A stretch of DNA of 64,000 nt. It comes from Sarcomyxa edulis. Lineage: Eukaryota > Basidiomycota > Agaricomycetes > Agaricales > Mycenaceae. Numbering within the stretch: position 1 is the first letter of the stretch; each line of letters begins with the position of its first letter. A program made the translations under genes and the position numbers. The notes under the pieces were generated by a model. The model searched no databases, was not told the origin of the DNA, and saw only the letters and a program-made list of their open reading frames with translations. The stretch covers positions 558,001 to 622,000 of the forward strand of contig QUOL01000017.1 in assembly GCA_009761415.1 (NCBI GenBank), in the 5' to 3' direction. Shown in pieces: positions 27,066 through 52,117 of this stretch.

Positions 27066-29464
27066 CAGTGGTAGTTGTTGTCGAAGTGGTCGAAGTGGTC
27101 GAAGTTGTGGAGGTTGTAGTACCAGTGGTTGTGGTAGTGGTACCGGTTCCAGAAATAGTGGTGGTGACTGTCGTCGTTCCAGTCGAAGTACCAGTACCAG
27201 TACCAGTACCAGTGGGGGTGGTGGAAGTCGTCGAAGTCGTCGAGGTTCCAGTGCCAGTGCCAGTGGTGGTGGTAGCAGTAGTCGTGGTAGATCCTGTCGT
27301 GGTAGTCGATCCTGCAGACGTAGTAGTAGTCGAGGTAGTGCCAGAAGTCGTCGTCGTCGATGTCGTTTGAGAGCTGTTAGGACCATTGGTGGTCGTAGTA
27401 CCCGATCCACCGGTGGTTGAAGTCGAGCTAGCACCGGATGTTGTACCTGACGAACCAGTAGTTGACGCGGTACCCGTAGCCGTGGTAGTGGTGCTTCCAG
27501 ACGAGCCGCCAGAAGTACTGGTGGACGAGATAGCAGTAGTGGTGGTAGATATCGTACCCACCTGGTTGAAAACCGCCGAGAAAGAGAAAACGCCTCCTAA
27601 CGAGGGTGTCGTTCCTCTACGATTTCCAGCCGCGCCTTGACTATCGAACTCGAAGGTAATCTGCAAAAATAAGATAAACATCAAAAAGGGTGGAGAGAAT
27701 GTAATGGAATGGACGTACGCTTCCGTCGCTACCCAACCGGAAGAACTTGAACTCGAAGAAGGTATTGGGAGGAAGATTGACAGTAATTTTCCATGTGGGG
27801 TAGTCAGCCGCCGATAGAAGAAGCTACAACGATGTGATTAGACGGATTATCCGCTATCAATATACGACCGTACTCACAGCACGAGAGGTGTCCCAATTAC
27901 CGAGAGCGTCGATGCTACCTACCAGATAGATGTTCTGAAAAGGGCAGACCGGCGATTAATAAGGTGCAGGAATGTGATGGTAGCGTGTATAAGACGCACC
28001 TCTCCGAAGTATGTCCTAGCAAAGAGCGAAAAGAATGCCGGAACAGTTGCTCCAGAGCCGCCTCCTGTGCCACCTCCAGTACCGCCCCCAGTGCCACCGC
28101 CTGTTCCACCACCAGTGCCACCACCAGTGCCTCCAGTGCCTCCACCCGTGCCTCCCCCGGTCCCGCCTGCAGTGCCTCCACCAGTGCCTCCACCAGTGCC
28201 TCCACCAGTGCCTCCTCCAGTGCCTCCTCCAGTGCCGCCACCAGTACCTCCTCCTGTACCTCCTCCAGTCCCACCCCCAGTGCCCCCGCCAGTGCTTCCT
28301 CCGGTCCCACCACCAGTGCCAGTGCTCCCAGCGCCCCCGCTAGCGCCACCACCAGAAATCGCATCAACTCCATCGAAAGTCGCGAAAAACAAAAGTGCAC
28401 CCGTCGAAGACGTAGTAGCCCTCCGGTTCCCAGCAGCCCCCTGTCTGTCGAATTCCCATGATATCTAAGGATACGCAAATCTCAATATCGTTCTCGTTTA
28501 ATACGAATAGAAAGGCATTCAACATACACTTCCATCAATTCCCAAACGGAAGAACTTGAATTCGAAGAAAGTGTTGGGTGGTATGTCGACGGTTATCCTC
28601 CATGTGGGATAGTCCGCTGATGATAGCAATAGCTAGAATGACAGAAAGAAATGATGAGATCCGCCATCAACGCCGAATTCGTTCGAATGGAGACTTACAG
28701 CACGAGATGTATCCCAATTACCCAAAGCGTCGATGCTGCCAGTGAGGTAAATGTTCTAGAACGGTTGTTTCAGCGGTGATAATGGGAGAGGGATGCAAGA
28801 CGAACCTCTCCATAATATGTCGTGACGAGGAGCGCAAAATCAGCTTCACCCGATGGAGTAGAACCAGAGCCAATATCGGTGCCATTCCCGCTACTGAGAG
28901 TTTCGCGATCGTTGAATGTAGTAGAAACTGTAGCTGTTCCTCTAGCGGCGGTGGTGAATACACGGTTGGGACCAAGGGGATCGAATTCCCAGGTTATCTG
29001 AGCGACATAGGTATGTCAAAATGCGGTCACAAGACAACAAATCAAAGGAAGTACTGACTCCGCCATCAGCCGCTTGACGGATGAACTTGTACTCAAACCT
29101 GGTATTTCCGGGGATACTGACGTAGGCGTCCCAGTCCGGGTACTCAGCTGGGCTCAGCGGAATCTAGGCGTAAAACGTCAAGACCATTGAGAAGAAGATA
29201 GGGACAGATCACGAACAGCATCATCAGGAGCCCAATTTCCCAACTCATAAATACTACCGACGACGTATATGTTCTGGGTATCGAATATCGATATCAGTCT
29301 ATTTCACACAGATCTGGTAGAGATCAACTGACTTCTCCATAAGCAGTGGGAGCATTATCAATAAAATGCACAGTGACCGAATCCCTGCTAACTAGAGCGG
29401 TGCTGCTGAAAGGCGATGCGATGGCCGATGCGAAGAACGGGATACAGGCGAAGACGGACTTCAT
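26761..29464 (-). CDS. Secreted three-module CBM20 protein (copy C)
   Basis: Ten phase-0 exons (29333-29464, 29217-29273, 29059-29163, 28806-28997, 28699-28755, 28528-28632, 28000-28464, 27878-27934, 27719-27823, 26761-27660) encode 724 aa. The signal peptide is MKSVFACIPFFASAIASP. Three CBM20 modules keep ELGNW/ALGNW, YPDWDAYV or YPTWxI, and FEYKF/FEFKFFR. The linker before module 3 is about 85 residues of GGGT repeats and lacks the Asp of copy B. The tail of about 260 residues is nearly pure Thr with GTTPTT and IGTTPTT periodicity. Same module order and exon sizes as copy B, so B and C are close duplicates. No catalytic domain. Confidence 0.9.
28055..28335 (-). repeat. Minisatellite encoding (GGGT)n linker
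   Basis: 12-bp units ggaggcactggt with synonymous variants encode the Gly-Thr linker of copy C. Confidence 0.8.
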
Positions 29465-35222: not shown

Positions 35223-37148
35223 CTAGCTCACAGCAACCGTAGCACCCTGGAGAGTAACAGCAGTCTGCACCAACAACCCACCGACGACCGTCCCACCCAC
35301 ATCCACAGCCACAGACGTCTGCCCAAGTAAGATCCCAGTAAACAGAGATCCCGTGGCGAACGACGCAGTGTCACCGACAGCCCAGATGATATTAGCTGGT
35401 TGCGCGTTCCCGCTGAGTATGATGTGGGTGTTGGATTGTAATGAGAGTGTCCCAGCTATCTGGAAGATCCAAGCTATGGAGACGAAATAGTCAGCGTCGA
35501 TCGATAGGAAGGAAGTACTTGGATGCTAGGGGAGGTGCTTACTATCGTTAGCCCCTCCAGCCAGAGTGACATCATCTGTGATAACGAGGTCTGAACTCCA
35601 TGCATATAATCCAGGTGCCAGGGTGATACCACCGATTTGACCTTCAGCATAACATTAAAACCACCATCAATGTGAATGCTAGTACCTAGAGATACACGCA
35701 CCACCTCCCAATTCCGATTGGTCAGGATCCGGACGCCCAGTTGCATCAGTATACGCTTTTTCCATATCGACAATAGCCGTGGTGAGTTTATCAGGCGTAG
35801 GGCTCGTATAGGACGCAGCTTGAAGGTCTCCTACTACTTGTGCGGATGTTGAAAAGGTTCCGCTTGCATCGAGAACGAGTGAGAATCCCGTGATGAACGT
35901 CGCTGCTGCGGGACTGATCCCCACATCGCCAGCTATACGAACCGAGAAGTCAGAAGCCGTATTGATCAGATATGGAAAAGAGCTCACTTATGTCGGAGGG
36001 AGGATCTGTGGACACGGCAGTTTCTGCGAGTATGACATAGGCAGCAGCCGTTCCAAGATCAACAGCACCCGGTCCCAACGGAGCAGAAGGCGGTGGAGGA
36101 GGAGGAGGCGGAGGCCCAGTAGTATTCGTCGCGTTAGGCGCAAAGATCATAGACCCCTGTATAGTAACAGTGTTCTGCGACAAAAGCCTCCCATTCACCG
36201 TCGTATCCGTGATCAACGTGATAGCCGCCTCACAAAGCAATATCCCTTCAAAGTGTGATCCAGATCCCAAGATGGAAGTGCCTGAGACGATCCAGAATAC
36301 GTTTTCGGCGAGTGCGCCTCCGCTTAGGAGGACGCTTTGATTGGGGTCGATGGTAAATGCTCCGAAGATTTGGAATATCCATGCTATCAGGGGGATTAGA
36401 GTTATATGCGAATGGTGACGATGTGCTGATGCGTACTATCAGTGGCATTGCCTAAGAGGGTAACGTCGCTGCTGATACCCACTCCGCCAGTCCAATTGTA
36501 TAGTCCAGGGACCAAAGTATGACCCCCGAGTCCGCCTACGAATTTCTCGTCAGTTCATTTCATTGTGTATACAAGAAACAAGGCTGAAGTTCGAATGGAA
36601 AAGAAATATCTCACCTCCATTCAACTCCACAAAATCAGGCTGAAGCCTACTGGTACCATCAACAAACGCAGCACCCATATCATCCACAGCCTTCTCCACA
36701 GCTCCAGGCGTCGGATCAACATAGTCAGCTGCAAAGACACGCCCAGAAACCTGGGATGAAGTAGCGAATTGTCCAGACGAATCAAGCGTGAGGTTGAATC
36801 CCGTCAGAGATGTAGAGAATGCGGGACTTAGACCAACGTCTCCGGCTAAAGAATATATAATTAAGACAAGGCGTCAGTGAGTTCCAGAATTGATGAAGAT
36901 GACAAGGACAGGGAAGGGAAGGGAAGAAGGTGTGACGGACAGATAGAACAATCTGGGACGACAGAAATTCCAGTCCTAGCGAGGACCGCATAGTTCGCCG
37001 ATGTTCCGATATCGACGGTCTCCGGGGAAAGTGCGAAGACACTTCCTAGGAATATCTATGACAATCGTCGATCAATGCATAGACACACGAACGAAGACGA
37101 TCAAGTACGAACCGAAACACCGAATGCTCGTAATCTCCACATATTCAT
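35223..37148 (-). CDS. Two-domain secreted ice-binding protein (DUF3494, IBP-1 type)
   Basis: Eight exons (37113-37148, 36950-37055, 36615-36845, 36437-36535, 35988-36383, 35702-35932, 35543-35641, 35223-35473) encode 482 aa. A signal peptide ends near FALS. Two DUF3494 beta-helix domains follow (about residues 23-247 and 263-482), joined by a run of nine prolines. Hallmarks occur in both: VDIGTSANYAVLA / VDLGTAAAYVILA, GDVGLSPAF / GDVGISPAAATFITGFSL, FSTSAQVVGDLQAASYTSPT, DMEKAYTDATGR, LAPGLYAWSS, WIFQIAGTL. The repeated exon sizes 231 and 99 show internal gene duplication. Such proteins bind ice and limit recrystallisation (established); single-domain forms are the usual fungal type. Confidence 0.93.
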
Positions 37149-39319: not shown

Positions 39320-41359
39320 TTACGGCCCAACAACAGTCGTCACCGTAGGCGTAGTCGTACCCGTAGTCTCTGTGGTGGCGGTGATGGTAGGCTTGGGCGT
39401 GGTAGTGATAGTAGTAGTGACGGTGGTGGTAGGCGTTGTTTTGGGAGGATCCGTTGTGGTTGTGGTTGTGGTTGTGGTGTCGGTGGTTGTGGTGTCGGTA
39501 GTGGTGGGAGGTGTTTTAGGAGGAATAGTTCCAATTGTAGTGGTGGTGGTGGTGGTGGTGGTGGTGGTGATGGTGTCGGTAGGAGGTGTTTTGGGAGGAA
39601 TAGTAGTGGTGGTGGTGGTAGTGTCGGTAGTGGTGGGAGGTGTTTTAGGAGGAATGGTTCCAATTGTAGTGGTGGTGGTGGTGGTGGTGTCGGTAGTGGT
39701 GGGAGGTGTTTTAGGAGGAATGGTTCCAATTGTAGTGGTGGTGGTGGTGGTGGTGTCGGTAGTGGTGGGAGGTGTTTTAGGAGGAATGGTTCCAATTGTA
39801 GTGGTGGTGGTGGTGGTGGTGTCGGTGGTGGTAGGAGGTGTTTTGGGAGGGATAGTCGTCGTAGTGGTGGTAGTAGTGCTCCCTGAGGGGCTAGTCGTCG
39901 TAGTCGTCGTAGTCGAACCAACACCCGTAGTCGAAGTCGTAGATCCAGAAGTAGTGGAAGTAGTAGAAGTAGAGACACCCGAAGTCGTAGTCGAACCGGT
40001 ACCCGTGCTCGTCGTCGTAGTTGAAGCCGAAGAAGTCGTCGTCGTCGAACCTGTAGTCGAAGTAGAAGTACCAGTTGTAGACGTCACAGTACCAGTAGTA
40101 CTAGTAGAAACTGTGCCATCCCCATCGAACGCCGCCGCGAAGGAGAACGTTCCTGATGAGGGTGTTGTGCCTTTTCGATTGCCAGCTGCGCCTTGGCTGT
40201 CGAATTCCCATGTTATCTGTCGATGGAGATAGGATCAGTATTGGGTTTGTGTCAGGGTATGTGTTGAAAAGAAGGAGGGAAGTGATGTATGGGGGAAGAG
40301 ATGGGAGGAGAGATGGGAGGGAGGGAAGGAAGGAGGGATAAAAGGAGGGAGAGAAAATCAACATACACTTCCATCACTTCCCAAACGGAAGAACTTGAAT
40401 TCGAAAGATGTGCTAGCGGGAAGCTCGACGGTGATTTTCCAGACGGGGTAGTCTGCCGATGAGAGGAGGAGCTATGGCGGTGAAATAGGAAATATATATG
40501 GATGAGTGAGATTGCCATCGTTGAAGAATGGATGGATACTTACAGCACGAGAGGTATCCCAATTACCTAAAGCGTCAATACTACCAACGAGATATATGTT
40601 CTGCAAAATGATAATTAGCTCAAGACTCGATGCAAACGTGTAAGAAGACACACCTCTCCATAATAAGTCGTCGCACGGAGTGAGAACTCAGCTTCGACAG
40701 TACCGTCCGACCCACCCCCACCACTCCCGCCCGACCCGCCACCGTTGCCAGAACCAACCCCATTGCCGCTAGTCGTAGTCCCACGATTGTTAAACGAAGT
40801 ATTGATAGTCGCGGATCCGCTACCCGCACTCGTGAACACGCGGTTGGCGCCGAGGGGGTCGAATTCCCATGTTATCTAGGATATGCGGATCGTGGGGTTA
40901 GCACTAGATCAAGAATATAATATGGAAAGTGCACTCACCCCGCCATCAGATCCTTTCCGAATGAACTTATACTCGAACCTGGTGTTTGCGGGTACGCCGA
41001 CGAAGGCGTCCCAGTCAGGGTAATTTGCTGGGCTCAGAGGGATCTATGCAGTGTGATATTTGAACAGGGGACATGCGATGGGGAGGAAATAAGGACGTAC
41101 AGCATTATCAGGGGACCAATTTCCCAGCTCGTTGATACTACCAACAACGAATATATTCTGTATGGACACCACCATGCGTAAAACTATCAGTATGAGATAC
41201 AGTGCACACAGGGGAGAGACTAACCTCGCCATAATACGTAGTAGCTGTATCGATGAAATGAACCGTCACTTCAGCTCTCTTTACATTATTCAAGTTGGTC
41301 ACCGGCGATCCGACGACGGATAGAGCAAGGACGTGGAGGTAGGAGATAAAAGACCTCAT
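39320..41359 (-). CDS. Secreted two-module CBM20 protein (copy D)
   Basis: Seven phase-0 exons (41225-41359, 41101-41157, 40939-41043, 40654-40875, 40544-40600, 40367-40471, 39320-40216) encode 525 aa. The signal peptide is MRSFISYLHVLALSVVGSP, followed by a propeptide ending VKR. Two CBM20 modules keep NELGNWSPDNA, YPDWDAFVGVPA, FEYKFIRKG and ALGNWDTSRA, YPVWKITVELPA, FEFKFFRLG. The tail of about 250 residues holds several copies of a 22-residue unit built from PPKTPPTTTDTTTT and IGTI. The last intron (150 nt, gggagg-rich) is about three times the usual size. No catalytic domain. Confidence 0.9.
39510..39855 (-). repeat. 66-bp minisatellite in copy D tail
   Basis: About five near-identical 66-bp units encode Pro-Lys-Thr-Pro-Pro plus Thr runs. 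High identity between units indicates recent expansion or homogenisation. Confidence 0.8.
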
Positions 41360-42329: not shown

Positions 42330-44440
42330 TTACAAACCAGCAACATTCACGCTCGCAGGCGCCACAACATCCCATCTCAACACAAGATTCACCTTCTCTT
42401 GTGCAGGAACGGAACACAACCAGTTCAATTTCCCGTCTTTCCCAATAGCCGACAAGTCAGCATTCGGATCATCTGCTCCATCCCATTGAGCTACGATGCC
42501 TTTCGCGATCAACAACGAATTCGGAGGCAATACGGGGCTTTTACCGTTGCCTCCGCCAGATGCAGATACAACCGCGGCAGTAGAAGGCAGACTCAACGCC
42601 GGAGTGAGGTACTTCACAACAATACCCGAATCTTGCGAAACGGGAAAACGATCAACGATCTTGAGGTTCTCAATAACTGTTGTCTTCGTGTTGTGGATGG
42701 TGATGTGTTGGGTGTAGCTGTGCGTCGTGGTTTTCTGGTACAAGCCAGATTGTGATGTTTTCTTGATCTGAGGAGGATAGGTGATGCGGATGGAAGGGTC
42801 CAGTCTGGAGGGATGGGGATATACATGAGAATGGACCGTTGATGGAGTTCACTTAACATGGAGGAACTTACCCGAGAGGACAATCGAAACTTTCTTGAGG
42901 GCTCACGGAAGGAACGCGTGATTTCGCGATGAAGCTACCATCGACATACACGCTTGCTGTTCCACTCAACAGAGTGTACTCTGACGCATTCTTGATCTTG
43001 GCCTGCATAACCAAGGAAGGTATCAGATTGGACAATACACTCTGCGGATCAGACAGGGTGACTCACACTTAGACGAGTCCTCGTGTCCAGGTTCGGGACA
43101 GCAATCCAGGATAATGACGCTTTGAGCTCCAATTGCACGATGGTAACGTTATGTGCGTGTCCGTCACTTGGGATAGTGATGAGACCGGGGACACTAAAGG
43201 TCGCGCTGACGGTGCCGTTGGAAGAGACGTCGAGACCTCGATATTCCATCTCTGCATATGGAATAGGCAGTCAGTCGATAACTTGAGAAAACTAGTTGCA
43301 GGCTTACCTGGTTCGGAAGATCCATGAAAAGTAGTCTCAGGACGATATGGCGCAAGATTTGCAGGTTGCGCTTCACTCTGGTTCACACCCAGATTCATCG
43401 GATACATCCTGGGTACATGAGGAACTGGCTCATACACAGACAAGCGCCATGGCTGAAGATCTGGGATTCCGACACCGAACGTAGGAGAAGCCGTTTCCAA
43501 TGTCAGAGGAACGTCGTTCCAGTCCTGTGTGTCAATCAATATTGTAATAGTGATAGAAGGCGGCATGAGGGCAAAAAAAACGAACCTCGCCAGTGGATTG
43601 CGTTATCGCTGCTTTGTAGATCAGCTTGACAGGCTTCTCCTTCGCCTGCATATCGACTATGATATCGTAACTGGCTCTCCAGGTGGGGTATTGCACCGCT
43701 ACACAGTCTTTTAGCCTGTATATGATTGAAAGATATCGATGAAGAGACTGACCATAGATCAGAGCAATTTCTATCTCCCCCTCCTTCTCCGAAAAAACCC
43801 CAACGACAACATGTACATTCGACGCATACGCATCATACATATCATAAGAGCTGGTCTTCGAATTCTCAACGTGAATCTGGCCCTGTAGGTTTCTCATCTC
43901 CTTTCGAAGATCAACAAGTCTTTCAGCTAGCTTCCCACCTTCGACTTCGTAACTCTCAAGGATGCCTGCAAGCTTAGACACGTCGACATGTTCGACGTTG
44001 AGAGTACGAAGGTAGGTCGCGATCGATTCTTGGGAGATTCTGCACCGATCTATTGCGGCTTCGAGAAGATCTTTTTTCTGGACTAGAGCATCACGATCGG
44101 CAGAGATCGGTGCATCTCGAGAGGGTATTGTATGTGAAACGGTAACATCGTGGATTGTGGCGGGACCGCGACCTTCAATTCTGTAGATAGAACGAATCGT
44201 CAGCGCATCCGTTTTCGCTAGATATACTGATTCTCACCTGAGAGATTCCTCGTCTATCGCACGAGGGAGGCCTGCGATACGGACTTGGTTTTGACCCATC
44301 TTCACCTTGATCTTGAACAGACGAGTGATCTCCGAGCGTCCTGAATAAAGGCTGACATTGACTATCTTGCTGTCTTCGACAGAGCTGAATTCCACGAGAT
44401 TAGAACCTTCAAAGGTAGGAGGGAGGTCGGCGAGTGACAT
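42330..44440 (-). CDS. DUF4140/DUF4139 domain protein (mucoidy inhibitor A-like)
   Basis: Seven exons (44238-44440, 43753-44180, 43586-43698, 43308-43524, 43067-43251, 42872-43002, 42330-42804) encode 583 aa. The N-terminal DUF4140 part is NVSLYSGRSEITRLFKIKVK with GQNQVRIAGLPRAIDEES. A coiled coil follows (ERLVDLRKEMRNLQGQIHVE). The DUF4139 beta-rich C-terminal half includes WRASYDIIVDMQ, KLIYKAAITQSTGEDWNDV, SGTASVYVDGSFIAKSRVPS and GKLNWLCSV. The family is widespread in fungi and bacteria, but its biochemical function is unknown. The typical bacterial name reflects an old mucoidy phenotype only. Complete and unbroken here. Confidence 0.88.
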
Positions 44441-45248: not shown

Positions 45249-45821
45249 TTAATAACTCGGCTTCAATGATCCCGAAACCAGTCCTTTCGAGTCACCGTAA
45301 TCTAAGTAAAACCCATCGGCATCGACATCTGTCGCATCCTGCAGGAGATCTTGGTCAGCTTGTGTGTTAAGTATATCTCGGACGAAGCGTGTCACCTTGC
45401 GAACAGGGTAATTGTACGCATCGACATTGGTCGCGTCCTGCACAAAGTTCTAGTGGGTGTCAAACCTTCTTCCGATATCCAGATAGCTTACGACGATTTC
45501 GCGGACGGGGTAGTTGTAGGCGTCGACATCAGTAGTATCCTAGCAGCCGTGTATAGAGGTCAAGGTAAGCCTTTAACACTTTCTGCTCGACTTACCGTGC
45601 TTTTTCGGACAGGATAATTGTATGCGTCGACATTGGTACCGTCCTAGATGACGACAGATGGTCAGTATTTCGATCGTAACTTCATTCGTGACATAGCTTA
45701 CGACACTCTTTCGGACAGGGTAATTGTAGGCGTCAACGTCTGTCCCATCTGAGATTGTCAAGGGGGTAGCGATCGCCAAAGCCACGAGAACAAGAGACGA
45801 AAGGATGGCAGTGAACTTCAT
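45249..45821 (-). CDS. Secreted repeat-peptide precursor, candidate dikaritin/UstA-like RiPP
   Basis: Five phase-0 exons (45702-45821, 45596-45643, 45492-45539, 45396-45437, 45249-45338) encode 115 aa. A signal peptide (MKFTAILSSLVLVALAIATP) leads into four near-identical repeats: DGTDVDAYNYPVRKSV, DGTNVDAYNYPVRKST, DTTDVDAYNYPVREIV, DATNVDAYNYPVRK. A fifth degenerate repeat begins DATDVDADGFYLDYGD. Two exons are exactly 48 nt and hold one repeat each. Basic VRK sites could serve Kex2-like processing in the secretory pathway. The gene lies about 1 kb from, and is divergent to, a UstYa-family gene, the pairing found in fungal ustiloxin-type peptide pathways. The peptide product is inferred. 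A TATA-like tataag (minus strand, about 45886-45891) precedes the ATG. Confidence 0.75.
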
Positions 45822-46801
45822 GCTGAGCGACGGAATTTGACAGGCGATGGAATTTTTTTCCAAGACCATGACCGTGCTGATCCTTCTTATACCAGCTGTA
45901 TAGGTCTTATCACACCAATAGCCAACGGTTGAAGCTCCGAATTGTCCTTAACTCTCGTGCTGATACTCAAAGAGTCTCATCCTACAGCAATTGACTTAGT
46001 CTTCGAATGGAGGCGGAATAGTGTATCCTAACCATCCTGGCGCATCTACATCCAAACCGGGTGTCTCGAAGGACTCTATGAGAGCCGTATTCACCCATTT
46101 CTCGTGTCGAGTCTCCAAAACAGGTGAATGAATCTCATCACGCTTTCCCGAGACTCAGGATGGCATTCTAGTTCATCGAAGGTAACCCTCACACCACTCT
46201 TCCATAACTTTCTCAGCCTTTTTACTCAGCCTTAATACTGCTATCTAGAAGGGTTAGAAGTCCTGGATAGAGTGCAGCTAAGCCTTCAGAAAGGCGGAAT
46301 GCAGCCTTCTCGAGAATGCCTAGGAAGTCGAGCCTCACTTTTGGGGTGGTCATTTAGAATGGTGAGTCCTATTGGATGAATGGTCGATACAGCGAATGCC
46401 ACTGACATCATCGATTTCGAAATAGCTGATGTGCATTGGGGCTTCTATGACTCCGTCGTTCAGTCGCTCCGATCAGAGCCTCGTGCGGAGAAACTCGCTT
46501 GCTCAAACTTCGCTCAACCCTCCATATACGCTCAAGAGTCTCCTGATAGGATTGCGCAATGCATTTACTCCTGGCCTCGCGGACAGCCTCTAAAAACGGG
46601 TATCGCTTCACTAGGGATGTTTTCAAGAGTAATGGATGCATCGGAAATAGGACGTCGAGACCGAATGTCTCATACTCGAAAATTTGTCTAATACAAGAAT
46701 AGTGCCTTCTTGTTCTTCGTGACGGTACGGGAATTCCGTATAGTTATTTGTGCCTTTAAAGACGCGACCAGCGTGAACACTCCGGGACAGGCCTCGAGAA
46801 C
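45822..46801 (-). pseudogene. Unresolved minus-strand coding traces between precursor and UstYa gene
   Basis: Several minus-strand segments look coding: YPFLEAVREARSKCIAQSYQ (about 46510-46610), RLDFLGILEKAAFRLSEGLA (about 46250-46350), and a C terminus HEKWVNTALIESFETPGLDV ending in a stop near 46000. Frames shift between them and I found no consistent set of splices or start. It may be a multi-exon gene I failed to assemble or a decayed one. No family is recognised. Its position inside the candidate peptide locus makes it worth resolving. Confidence 0.35.
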
Positions 46802-47789
46802 ATGGCTCGACTTTCTGCGGGTTATCGCCCTCTTCCGGACGATTGTGACTTCCAAGCTCTCCCCAAATCCCGTTATGATCAGCAGAGTGATCAGCAGAGG
46901 ACCCCGTCTCCCTCCTCATCCAGATTGCTGAAAATCACCGCTGTATTCGAGAGCATGATCATCGTCGTTCTACTATATCTCTGGTATCACAATTCTTCTG
47001 ATATTCCCGAGTTCGCGAGCCCCAGTTGTCCTCGCGAACAACTATTATATTGTACGTCTTTGTGAAGTCTATGCATCATCCGCGTTAACCTGTTTGTCTA
47101 CATGTCAGCCCCGCTCCAGGATTTGATGGAATACAAAATTGTGAAGTTCAACGGTGGCTTTAGTCCTAATAGCTCCATCTATCAGGGGCCGCCTTCTGAT
47201 GCTGTCGATGCAGCGTGGGACGCGTTATATCAATGTATGGAGTATCTCTTCTTCAATGTCACTCGTTTTTCTCATTGCATCATATCACAGTTGGTATATC
47301 GAAAATTCCGAAGAGCGAGGCAGAGCGTCTGGTAAATAAGACGTATCCCATCTTGGGCGAAGACGATCAATATATCGTGGAGATTGACGTGTTCCACGAG
47401 TTGCATTGCCTTGTCAGCCTCCCGTCCTTTATCTTCGCCATCCTCCAATTTCACTCACAAATCATTACTAGAACCAAATCCGCAAAGCCATGAATCCGGC
47501 TTACTATCATCCTGCAGGATCTTCGCAGGTGACCGAGATTCTACTGGGAGAACATCACCTTAGTCACTGCCTCGATAGCATCCGACAGTCGCTGATGTGT
47601 TCGGCTGATATCAGCACTATCGTGTGGAAGTGGGATGAGGAGAATCAGATGGCGCGATCCAACTTCGATATCGTGCATTCCTGTCGTAACTTCGACAAGA
47701 TACGCGACTGGGCCATGGAGCATCATATCCAGTATAGCCCGGATTTGTCGGTTCATCTCGAAGATGATATAGTTATACCTGAGTTTTAG
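46802..47789 (+). CDS. UstYa-family oxidase (DUF3328)
   Basis: Four exons (46802-47051, 47109-47234, 47291-47412, 47472-47789) encode 271 aa, the usual family length. A Ser-rich cytosolic N terminus precedes one membrane segment (about 43-61, ITAVFESMIIVVLLYLW), so the enzyme should face the Golgi/ER lumen. Both family motifs are intact: HELHC (161-165) followed by LNQIRK, and HLSHC (195-199) in HHLSHCLDSIRQSLMCSADI; the C-terminal VWKWDEE is also typical. UstYa proteins catalyse oxidative cyclisation or dehydrogenation of ribosomal peptides such as ustiloxin, asperipin and cyclochlorotine (established). The adjacent repeat precursor with Tyr-rich cores is the likely substrate (inference). 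Confidence 0.92.
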
Positions 47790-50638: not shown

Positions 50639-52117
50639 ATGAAGTCGTTCTTCGCTTGCCTTCCTCTCCTCGCTCTGTCGGTCATCGCTACCCCGGTCAC
50701 CAACCTTGTCAAGCGAGAATCGGTCACAGTACACTTCATCGAGACAGCCACAACATACTTCGGCGAGGTCAGTCTATACTCTCCTATGTCACACGATCTC
50801 ATACTCATACCCATCTCCTCTCCCTATAGAACATCTTCGTCGTTGGAGGCATCAACGAGCTAGGAAACTGGAACACTGACAACGCTGTGCGTCTCTAATC
50901 TCATGGCTTTATCGCATTTAGTCCTTACTCTTTTTGTTTTTCCAGATTGCCCTAAGCCCATCCAACTACCCAGATTGGGACACCTACGTTAGCTTCCCTG
51001 CCAACACACGGTTTGAGTACAAGTTCATCCGTAAAGCACCCAACGGCGCTGTACGTCCCCTATTTCCTATATCCGTCAATGCATTCATTCTTATGTTCTT
51101 CCGTGTTCAGGTCACTTGGGAATTCGATCCCCTTGGTGCTAACCGAGTGTTCACCACTGGCTCCTCTGGCACAGCAACCGTCTCTTCTTCCTTCGACAAC
51201 CGTGGCACCACAGTCAGTCAAAGCAACGGCGGAGGAGGTGGCGGCTCTGACGGCACAGTCGAGGGCGACTTCTCCCTCCTTGCCACAACCTACTACGGAG
51301 AGGTACGTCTCTACCAGTTCTATCATCTTCTCCTATCTAATCACCTTCCCCTTCACAGAACATCTACTTGGCTGGTAGCATCGACGCACTCGGTAACTGG
51401 GACACCTCCCGTGCTGTGAGTTGACCTTGTCTTCGAGTGTCACTACGTTTCTCATCGCTTGTTATAGCTTCTCCTATCAGCAGCCGATTACCCTACATGG
51501 AAAATCTCCGTCGACCTCCCTGCTAGCACTTCTTTCGAGTTCAAGTTCTTCCGTCTAGGAAGCGATGGAAGTGTACGTCTATTTCTTATGCATTCAAGCA
51601 TCGATATTCATCATCATATCCTCCACAGATCACATGGGAATTCAACAGTCAAGGCGCCGCTGGTAACCGTAAAGCAACAACTCCTTCGTCAGGAACGTTC
51701 TTCTTCTCAGCGACTTTTAACGGAGAAGCGACAGTCTCCACCAGCACATCCATGTCGTCCACAACCACGACCACTATGTCGTCGACCACAACTTCGACTA
51801 CCACCTCCACCACTCCCACACTCACCTCGACTTCGACTACCACTTCTTCGACCACTACCTCCACGACCTCCACCACTCCCACCTCCACGACCACGTCGAC
51901 AACGCCCACCTCTACCTCCACTACCACCACGTCGACCACTTTGACAACTCCCACTGTCACCGTCACTTCGACCGTCACAACCCCTACTATTACAACTCCC
52001 TCTATCACCACCACGGTTACAACCCCCACTGTTACCGTCACCTCCACTATCACCTCCACGCCCACCACTACCTCCACCATTACCACGGTTACGGTAACGT
52101 CCACGGCCACGGTTTAG
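50639..52117 (+). CDS. Secreted two-module CBM20 protein (copy E)
   Basis: Seven phase-0 exons (50639-50767, 50830-50886, 50946-51050, 51111-51302, 51359-51415, 51468-51572, 51629-52117) encode 377 aa, the shortest copy. The signal peptide is MKSFFACLPLLALSVIATP with a propeptide ending VKR. Two CBM20 modules keep NELGNWNTDNA, YPDWDTYVSFPA, FEYKFIRKA, and ALGNWDTSRA, YPTWKISVDLPA, FEFKFFRLG. The Gly-rich linker (GGGGGGSDGT) is short, and the Thr/Val tail (TVTVTST repeats) is about 115 residues. It is the only copy on the + strand and lies about 460 bp upstream of the second SDR gene. No catalytic domain. Confidence 0.9.

Follow-up and report, generated by a model that had tools for sequence, protein, structure and literature searches.

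An exon-per-repeat precursor gene head-to-head with a UstYa-family gene in the agaric Sarcomyxa edulis: a candidate locus for an oxidatively modified ribosomal peptide

In a 64 kb window (the whole stretch of DNA analyzed here) of contig C9 of Sarcomyxa edulis, we identified two neighboring genes that probably direct the production of a ribosomal peptide that is both secreted and oxidatively modified. A repeat-precursor gene on the minus strand and a UstYa-family gene on the plus strand stand head-to-head, each repeat of the precursor lies on its own exon, and the pair recurs elsewhere in the genome as a duplicated module in which amino-acid change is low relative to silent change. The locus most likely follows the logic of a dikaritin pathway, its product being a ribosomal peptide modified by UstYa. 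New here, for a UstYa-linked repeat precursor, are the core, the exon-per-core plan, the duplicated two-gene module, and the agaric host. The features of the locus, in window coordinates, are as follows:

45249..45338, minus strand: precursor exon 5, 90 nt; degenerate repeat DATDVDADGFY..., C-terminus, and stop codon
45396..45437, minus strand: precursor exon 4, 42 nt, phase 0; repeat 4, DATNVDAYNYPV-RK
45492..45539, minus strand: precursor exon 3, 48 nt, phase 0; repeat 3, DTTDVDAYNYPV-RE-IV, basic pair lost
45596..45643, minus strand: precursor exon 2, 48 nt, phase 0; repeat 2, DGTNVDAYNYPV-RK-ST
45702..45821, minus strand: precursor exon 1, 120 nt, phase 0; hydrophobic N-terminus (putative signal peptide) and repeat 1, DGTDVDAYNYPV-RK-SV
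45822..46801, no strand: divergent intergenic region, 980 bp; the ~100 bp nearest the precursor are conserved in the copy on contig C13
46802..47051, plus strand: UstYa exon 1; by eye, holds the N-terminal tail and a membrane helix
47109..47234, plus strand: UstYa exon 2 (exon model)
47291..47412, plus strand: UstYa exon 3; first motif HELHC, residues 161-165
47472..47789, plus strand: UstYa exon 4; second motif HLSHC, residues 195-199

The precursor runs on the minus strand from an ATG at 45821 to a stop codon ending at 45249, and its five exons (120, 48, 48, 42, and 90 nt) are separated by introns of 58, 56, 54, and 57 nt that are GT-AG and phase 0 throughout in the model built from the sequence, giving a spliced product of 115 aa. 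The original prediction described a secreted precursor with four near-identical repeats containing DVDAYNYPV, and the repeats are confirmed: four intact repeats of the form D-x-T-[D/N]-V-D-A-Y-N-Y-P-V are followed by a degenerate fifth, and the hydrophobic N-terminus, taken by eye as a signal peptide, suggests that the protein is probably secreted. The internal repeat exons measure 42-48 nt, and the four repeats occupy two different frames in the unspliced DNA, so that splicing alone reads the units as one protein. This exon-per-repeat anatomy, absent from the original prediction, is the oddest feature of the locus. We infer the five-exon splicing from the sequence and from a paralogue on contig C13, in which exon 1 has the same length (120 nt).

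The genome searched comprises 35.6 Mb in 40 contigs. A degenerate DNA pattern coding for DAYNYP matched it 12 times, four times in the window precursor and eight times in the C13 paralogue, and the reversed control pattern gave 0 matches. By pattern and protein search, the exact DAYNYP code is confined to these two genes genome-wide, each ~1 kb from a UstYa gene. The pairing of a repeat precursor with UstYa that had been predicted is real and beyond chance; its divergent arrangement at about 1 kb is confirmed by the 980 bp between start codons, and its basidiomycete setting by a host in Agaricales. That placement comes from thymidylate synthase, spliced from contig C38: among the matches listed (120 of 622), the best was to Tetrapyrgos nigripes (87% over 93% of the query) and those with names were from Agaricomycetes, so a tremellomycete origin was rejected. 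A search of 5.8 billion proteins with the precursor, sensitive only to relatives that share exact 5-residue words and a similar length, gave 280 candidates, of which a single one matched within the limit of E 1. This protein, P0001, is an 82-aa fragment in which exon 1 is read through into intron 1, and by its sequence it is a third example of the precursor kind, besides the window and C13 copies. The core was predicted to be new, and it is indeed absent from every named protein found, and its letters from every paper of the open-access literature searched, preprints aside.

The C13 precursor carries eight repeats in eight exons of 120, 48, 48, 42, 42, 42, 42, and 54 nt, one repeat each and all in phase 0, and lies head-to-head with its own UstYa gene, with 1052 bp between start codons. 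When the whole window was compared by blastn with 29.7 kb around the C13 locus, all 12 rows of similarity fell in the two genes and their edges, extending at most ~100 bp beyond the precursor on its upstream side and ~43 bp beyond the stop codon of UstYa; because the similarity is limited in this way, the pair appears to have been copied or kept as a unit. Among the matches listed by tblastx, those elsewhere were short and weak (<30 bits) and were left uncounted. The duplicated two-gene module, as read from the sequences, strengthens the evidence for pairing well beyond the original prediction, and the apparent co-conservation of precursor and UstYa rests on these paralogues within one genome together with the fragment P0001.

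The two UstYa proteins are identical at 227 of 267 aligned residues (dN 0.086, dS 1.06), and exons 1-4 of the two precursors give dN 0.11 and dS 0.62. Both genes thus look constrained, with amino-acid changes far fewer than silent ones, a pairwise dN/dS ratio being a property of the two copies together that assigns constraint to neither the window copy nor the C13 copy. Across the 66 pairs formed by the 12 intact repeats (the degenerate exon 5 of the window was dropped), pS is 0.75 and pN 0.056; VDAYNYP is identical in all 12, both tyrosines included. Amino acids kept while silent sites approach saturation indicate that the repeats are old. Introns 1-4 of the window and C13 precursors pair position by position (z 5.9, 10.4, 9.2, and 5.7; best off-diagonal 4.1), which implies that the exon-per-repeat plan predates the duplication of the module, at least for the first exons. 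Some of the C13 introns are also alike among themselves (4-6, z 6.3; 1-6, z 5.6; 5-6, z 4.6), a hint that an exon and its intron were copied jointly. Copy number differs between the loci, four intact repeats and one degenerate in the window versus eight on C13, as gain or loss of phase-0 exons would give.

The UstYa gene (46802-47789, plus strand, four exons, 271 aa) encodes a protein whose only Pfam match is to UstYa (PF11807; 186.6 bits, E 7.5e-55, cut-off 25 bits), a family that we take to be the same as DUF3328. It had been described as intact with both HxxHC motifs, and it is: in an alignment of 43 sequences (the query and 42 of its 89 matches), H161, H164, C165, H195, and H198 are invariant and C199 is conserved in at least 90%. 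These 89 matches passed E 0.001 out of 405 candidates, with identities of 31 to 56% over the aligned part, and those with names come mostly from Agaricomycetes and some from ascomycetes. A sequence search up to E 1 found no relative in the PDB. Among DUF3328 enzymes, CctR is reported to have a cyclic peptide as its substrate and to be a binuclear copper enzyme: each monomer binds two copper ions through the motif, and the reaction uses oxygen and an electron source (PMC12435403). The window protein shares with CctR the HxxHC(x)nHxxHC motif, a membrane helix, and the protein family; CctR hydroxylates cyclochlorotine, whereas the reaction of the window UstYa is putative only. The UstYa neighbor is likely a copper enzyme, with copper binding as its predicted property.

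Among 11 neighboring open frames, a Pfam scan found no peptidase, tyrosinase, methyltransferase, or transporter; the matches were to DUF4139/4140, SDR, NIF phosphatase, and ice-binding families. No S41 peptidase match lies near the C9 or C13 locus, the one match in the genome being below cut-off and on another contig, and a tyrosinase search of the genome gave no match anywhere, its controls being silent too. Downstream of the precursor, at 42333-44440 (minus strand), lies a DUF4140/DUF4139 protein gene for which blastn finds no counterpart at the C13 locus, and 35953-36435 (minus strand) is an exon whose product resembles ice-binding proteins (PF11999, E 4.2e-24). Three Ser/Thr- or Gly-rich frames at 27919-28464 (minus), 39320-40234 (minus), and 51527-52117 (plus) share an I(S/T)WEF(D/N)xQGAAGNR-like stretch and look like a small family, for which one may guess at a putative starch-binding-type end; the two of these three that were scanned gave no Pfam match.

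The pathway we propose would begin with splicing of the precursor, each exon adding one unit, and entry of the product into the secretory pathway. There, the membrane-bound and presumably copper-dependent UstYa enzyme would modify the Y-N-Y-P-V stretch, after which proteases would cleave the chain at the R-K pairs or close to them and trim the pieces, freeing several copies of one short peptide. Since all precursor introns are in phase 0, gain, loss, or skipping of an exon would alter only the core copy number. By analogy, the reaction is most likely a tyrosine cross-link, with hydroxylation or something similar as the alternative; cross-linking of the YNY core is nonetheless a guess, since hydroxylation, halogenation, and isomerization have also been linked to DUF3328 enzymes (PMC12435403). 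For the unmodified peptides, the computed [M+H]+ values are 1342.580 for DATDVDAYNYPV, 1328.564 for DGTDVDAYNYPV, 1055.468 for DVDAYNYPV, 726.346 for AYNYPV, and 655.309 for YNYPV. Each ring would change these masses by minus 2.016, and a hydroxyl adds 15.995 each.

Cleavage is the weak step of this pathway. The VRK sites of the original prediction are present in three of the four window repeats, the third reading VRE, and the C13 paralogue has RK after seven of its eight cores and RR after the other. Arg thus follows the core in 12/12 repeats and a basic pair in 11/12 (10 RK, 1 RR, 1 RE), and the canonical Kex2 sites KR, RR, and KK are absent from all four intact repeats of the window precursor. 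Published cleavage sites of dikaritins and Kex2 repeat proteins (KEPs) are KR, RR, and less often KK (PMC9769878, PMC6339444). A study of agarics counted RK as a cleavage site in one of its screens, reported products ending at a single Arg or Lys after expression in Pichia, and noted that Coprinopsis cinerea, like other agaricomycetes, has three kex2 genes (PMC9769878). In the present genome, an exon-by-exon search found at least one kexin-type P-domain.

Set against known classes, the locus has the multi-copy core precursor (signal peptide by eye) and the UstYa gene of a dikaritin and lacks KR/RR/KK sites; likewise, inspection finds the signal peptide and repeats of a KEP in the window precursor without KR/RR/KK between the repeats. 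The UstYa protein exceeds the curated PF11807 cut-off and carries both HxxHC motifs. As the canonical Kex2 site is missing and the cross-link is putative, we do not file the locus as a dikaritin; of the original dikaritin assignment, the repeat precursor and UstYa stand, and the RK/RE sites do not fit it. Like ustiloxin, phomopsin, asperipin, and victorin, the locus has a secreted multi-copy precursor (here predicted), short cores, and a clustered UstYa-family enzyme, and the cores of the first three contain Tyr, as does the window core. It differs from the dikaritins in having RK/RE for KR/RR/KK, one core per exon, a new core, an agaric host, a putative product, and one UstYa with no recognized peptidase or tyrosinase nearby. 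With the basidiomycete KEPs (Le Marquer 2019; Umemura 2020; Vogt 2022), it has in common a signal peptide, short repeats with basic residues, and basidiomycete hosts, some of those KEPs also lying beside DUF3328 genes; the surveys that described them worked from sets of predicted or annotated proteins.

The precursor might instead give short linear secreted peptides with a signaling or environmental role, as several agaric repeat proteins have been shown to do, while its UstYa neighbor acts on something else. Such a reading would agree with reports that KEP peptides detected in agarics carry few modifications or none and are linear (PMC9769878) and that only 103 of 1680 basidiomycete KEPs lie near DUF3328 (PMC7329392). 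We consider it unlikely, since the pair is the only blastn-shared content of two otherwise different loci, both of its genes look constrained, and two further precursors in the genome are also head-to-head with UstYa.

An uncut secreted structural or surface repeat protein, an alternative that the original prediction had itself named, is less probable still: non-canonical RK/RE sites would suit it, as would a modeled precursor on contig C16 without any dibasic sites, but a precursor of 115 aa is short, it has a UstYa partner, and the Arg after every core, the basic pair after all but one, and the identity of VDAYNYP in 12/12 repeats speak against such a protein. We give very little weight to the idea that the window copy is a decaying relic of the C13 copy, despite its spoiled fifth repeat and the basic pair lost to RE in repeat 3, because dN is far below dS in both genes, the frames are open, and the splice signals are intact. 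A secreted peptide modified by UstYa is our preferred reading of the pair.

Genome-wide, 18 PF11807 matches resolve, by our own grouping, into ten genes at nine loci. Repeat precursors occur at four of the nine loci, which hold five of the ten genes (C9, C13, C36 near 1.005 Mb, and C16), and all four precursors are head-to-head with UstYa, with 980 (C9), 1052 (C13), 934 (C36), and 1241 bp (C16) between start codons. Those of C36 and C16 are split by introns and unrelated in sequence to the window precursor:

C36:1006059-1004956, minus strand: precursor adjoining a tandem UstYa pair at C36:1006994 and ~1009.9k (plus strand)
C16:204307-203256, minus strand: precursor with UstYa from C16:205549 (plus strand)

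One unit per exon is found in three of the four precursors. The C36 precursor has 15 IQSNYG units, with KR after 10 and RR after 2, grouped 3, 3, 4, 4, and 1 by introns (read by eye); by sequence, this locus is closer to a canonical dikaritin than that of the window. In the C16 precursor, each of six exons carries one HHVH unit, the introns are phase 1, and the modeled protein has no dibasic sites; as a guess, these units could bind metal. Di-histidine repeat-protein types beside DUF3328 have been described (Umemura 2020; PMC7329392), and C16 resembles types G-3 and G-8 in its HHVH unit beside a UstYa gene, a likeness drawn from their description rather than from the type sequences; it differs from them in its one unit per exon, phase 1 introns, and lack of dibasic sites.

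At the other five loci, with the remaining five genes, a repeat-word scan of the surrounding DNA revealed no repeat precursor, which implies that UstYa in this genome also does other things or has precursors of another type. The UstYa gene at C36:1519688-1520313 (minus strand) resembles that of the window more than those of other unpaired loci do, sharing a CSADI...IVW(Q/K)W stretch, and a closer look around it found only two-copy words and the start of a non-repetitive hydrophobic open frame, with no repeat precursor. Two UstYa genes 39 kb apart (C12:654.6k and C12:615.3k) have the word RVTxP recurring nearby at the same spacing (188 and 64 nt) and are probably paralogous loci. Of eight control stretches, which were five window stretches and three flanks rather than a random sample, one (C36:1012401-1019000) was positive for words repeated at least 4 times in several frames, and another showed just one word of this kind, in one frame only. 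Dense minisatellite-like repeats at C36:1016230-1017350 mimic precursors in six-frame scans and are a source of false positives. Strand does not separate the positive loci from the false positive, as both score on both strands.

Published surveys place these loci in context. Of 7878 repeat proteins, taken from annotated proteins, 1758 were near DUF3328 genes, and in Basidiomycota 103 of 1680 (Umemura 2020; PMC7329392); in Pleurotus, 16 UstYa-like genes were considered 'probably involved in dikaritin production' (PMC8893723). The statement that such pathways are hardly described in basidiomycetes therefore holds, as far as found, for chemistry, the open-access literature (preprints and subscription papers lying outside it) having yielded no chemically confirmed basidiomycete dikaritin, but not for genes, given the count reported in 2020. 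An arrangement with one core per exon is nowhere mentioned in the available text of the open-access literature searched, including PMC7329392, PMC6339444, PMC9769878, PMC12435403, PMC9233826, PMC12048977, PMC8893723, and PMC9258550; in the KEP papers (Le Marquer 2019; Umemura 2020; Vogt 2022), the word 'exon' is absent and 'intron' appears once, about cDNA.

We tentatively suggest, as a possibility rather than an expectation, that there exists in agarics a class of ribosomal peptide precursors built from exon modules, each core on a phase-symmetric mini-exon of its own and the gene head-to-head with one for a copper UstYa enzyme, in which the number and perhaps the choice of cores shift by exon duplication, loss, or skipping. 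Because exons of 42-48 nt are hard to predict, protein-based surveys would miss such precursors, and the low count of UstYa-linked peptides in basidiomycetes may be partly an annotation artefact; surveys of annotated proteins would easily miss genes like the window precursor, which suggests a concrete reason why they hold few mushroom precursors. An all-frame DNA scan near UstYa genes for repeated mini-exons should reveal more of them; in this one genome, the repeat scan gave precursors at 4/9 loci against 1/8 false-positive controls. If our reading is right, the locus is a basidiomycete route, open to testing, to peptides that have a new core and are modified by UstYa, and one exon, one core would be a simple genetic means of changing both the dose of the cores and their set.
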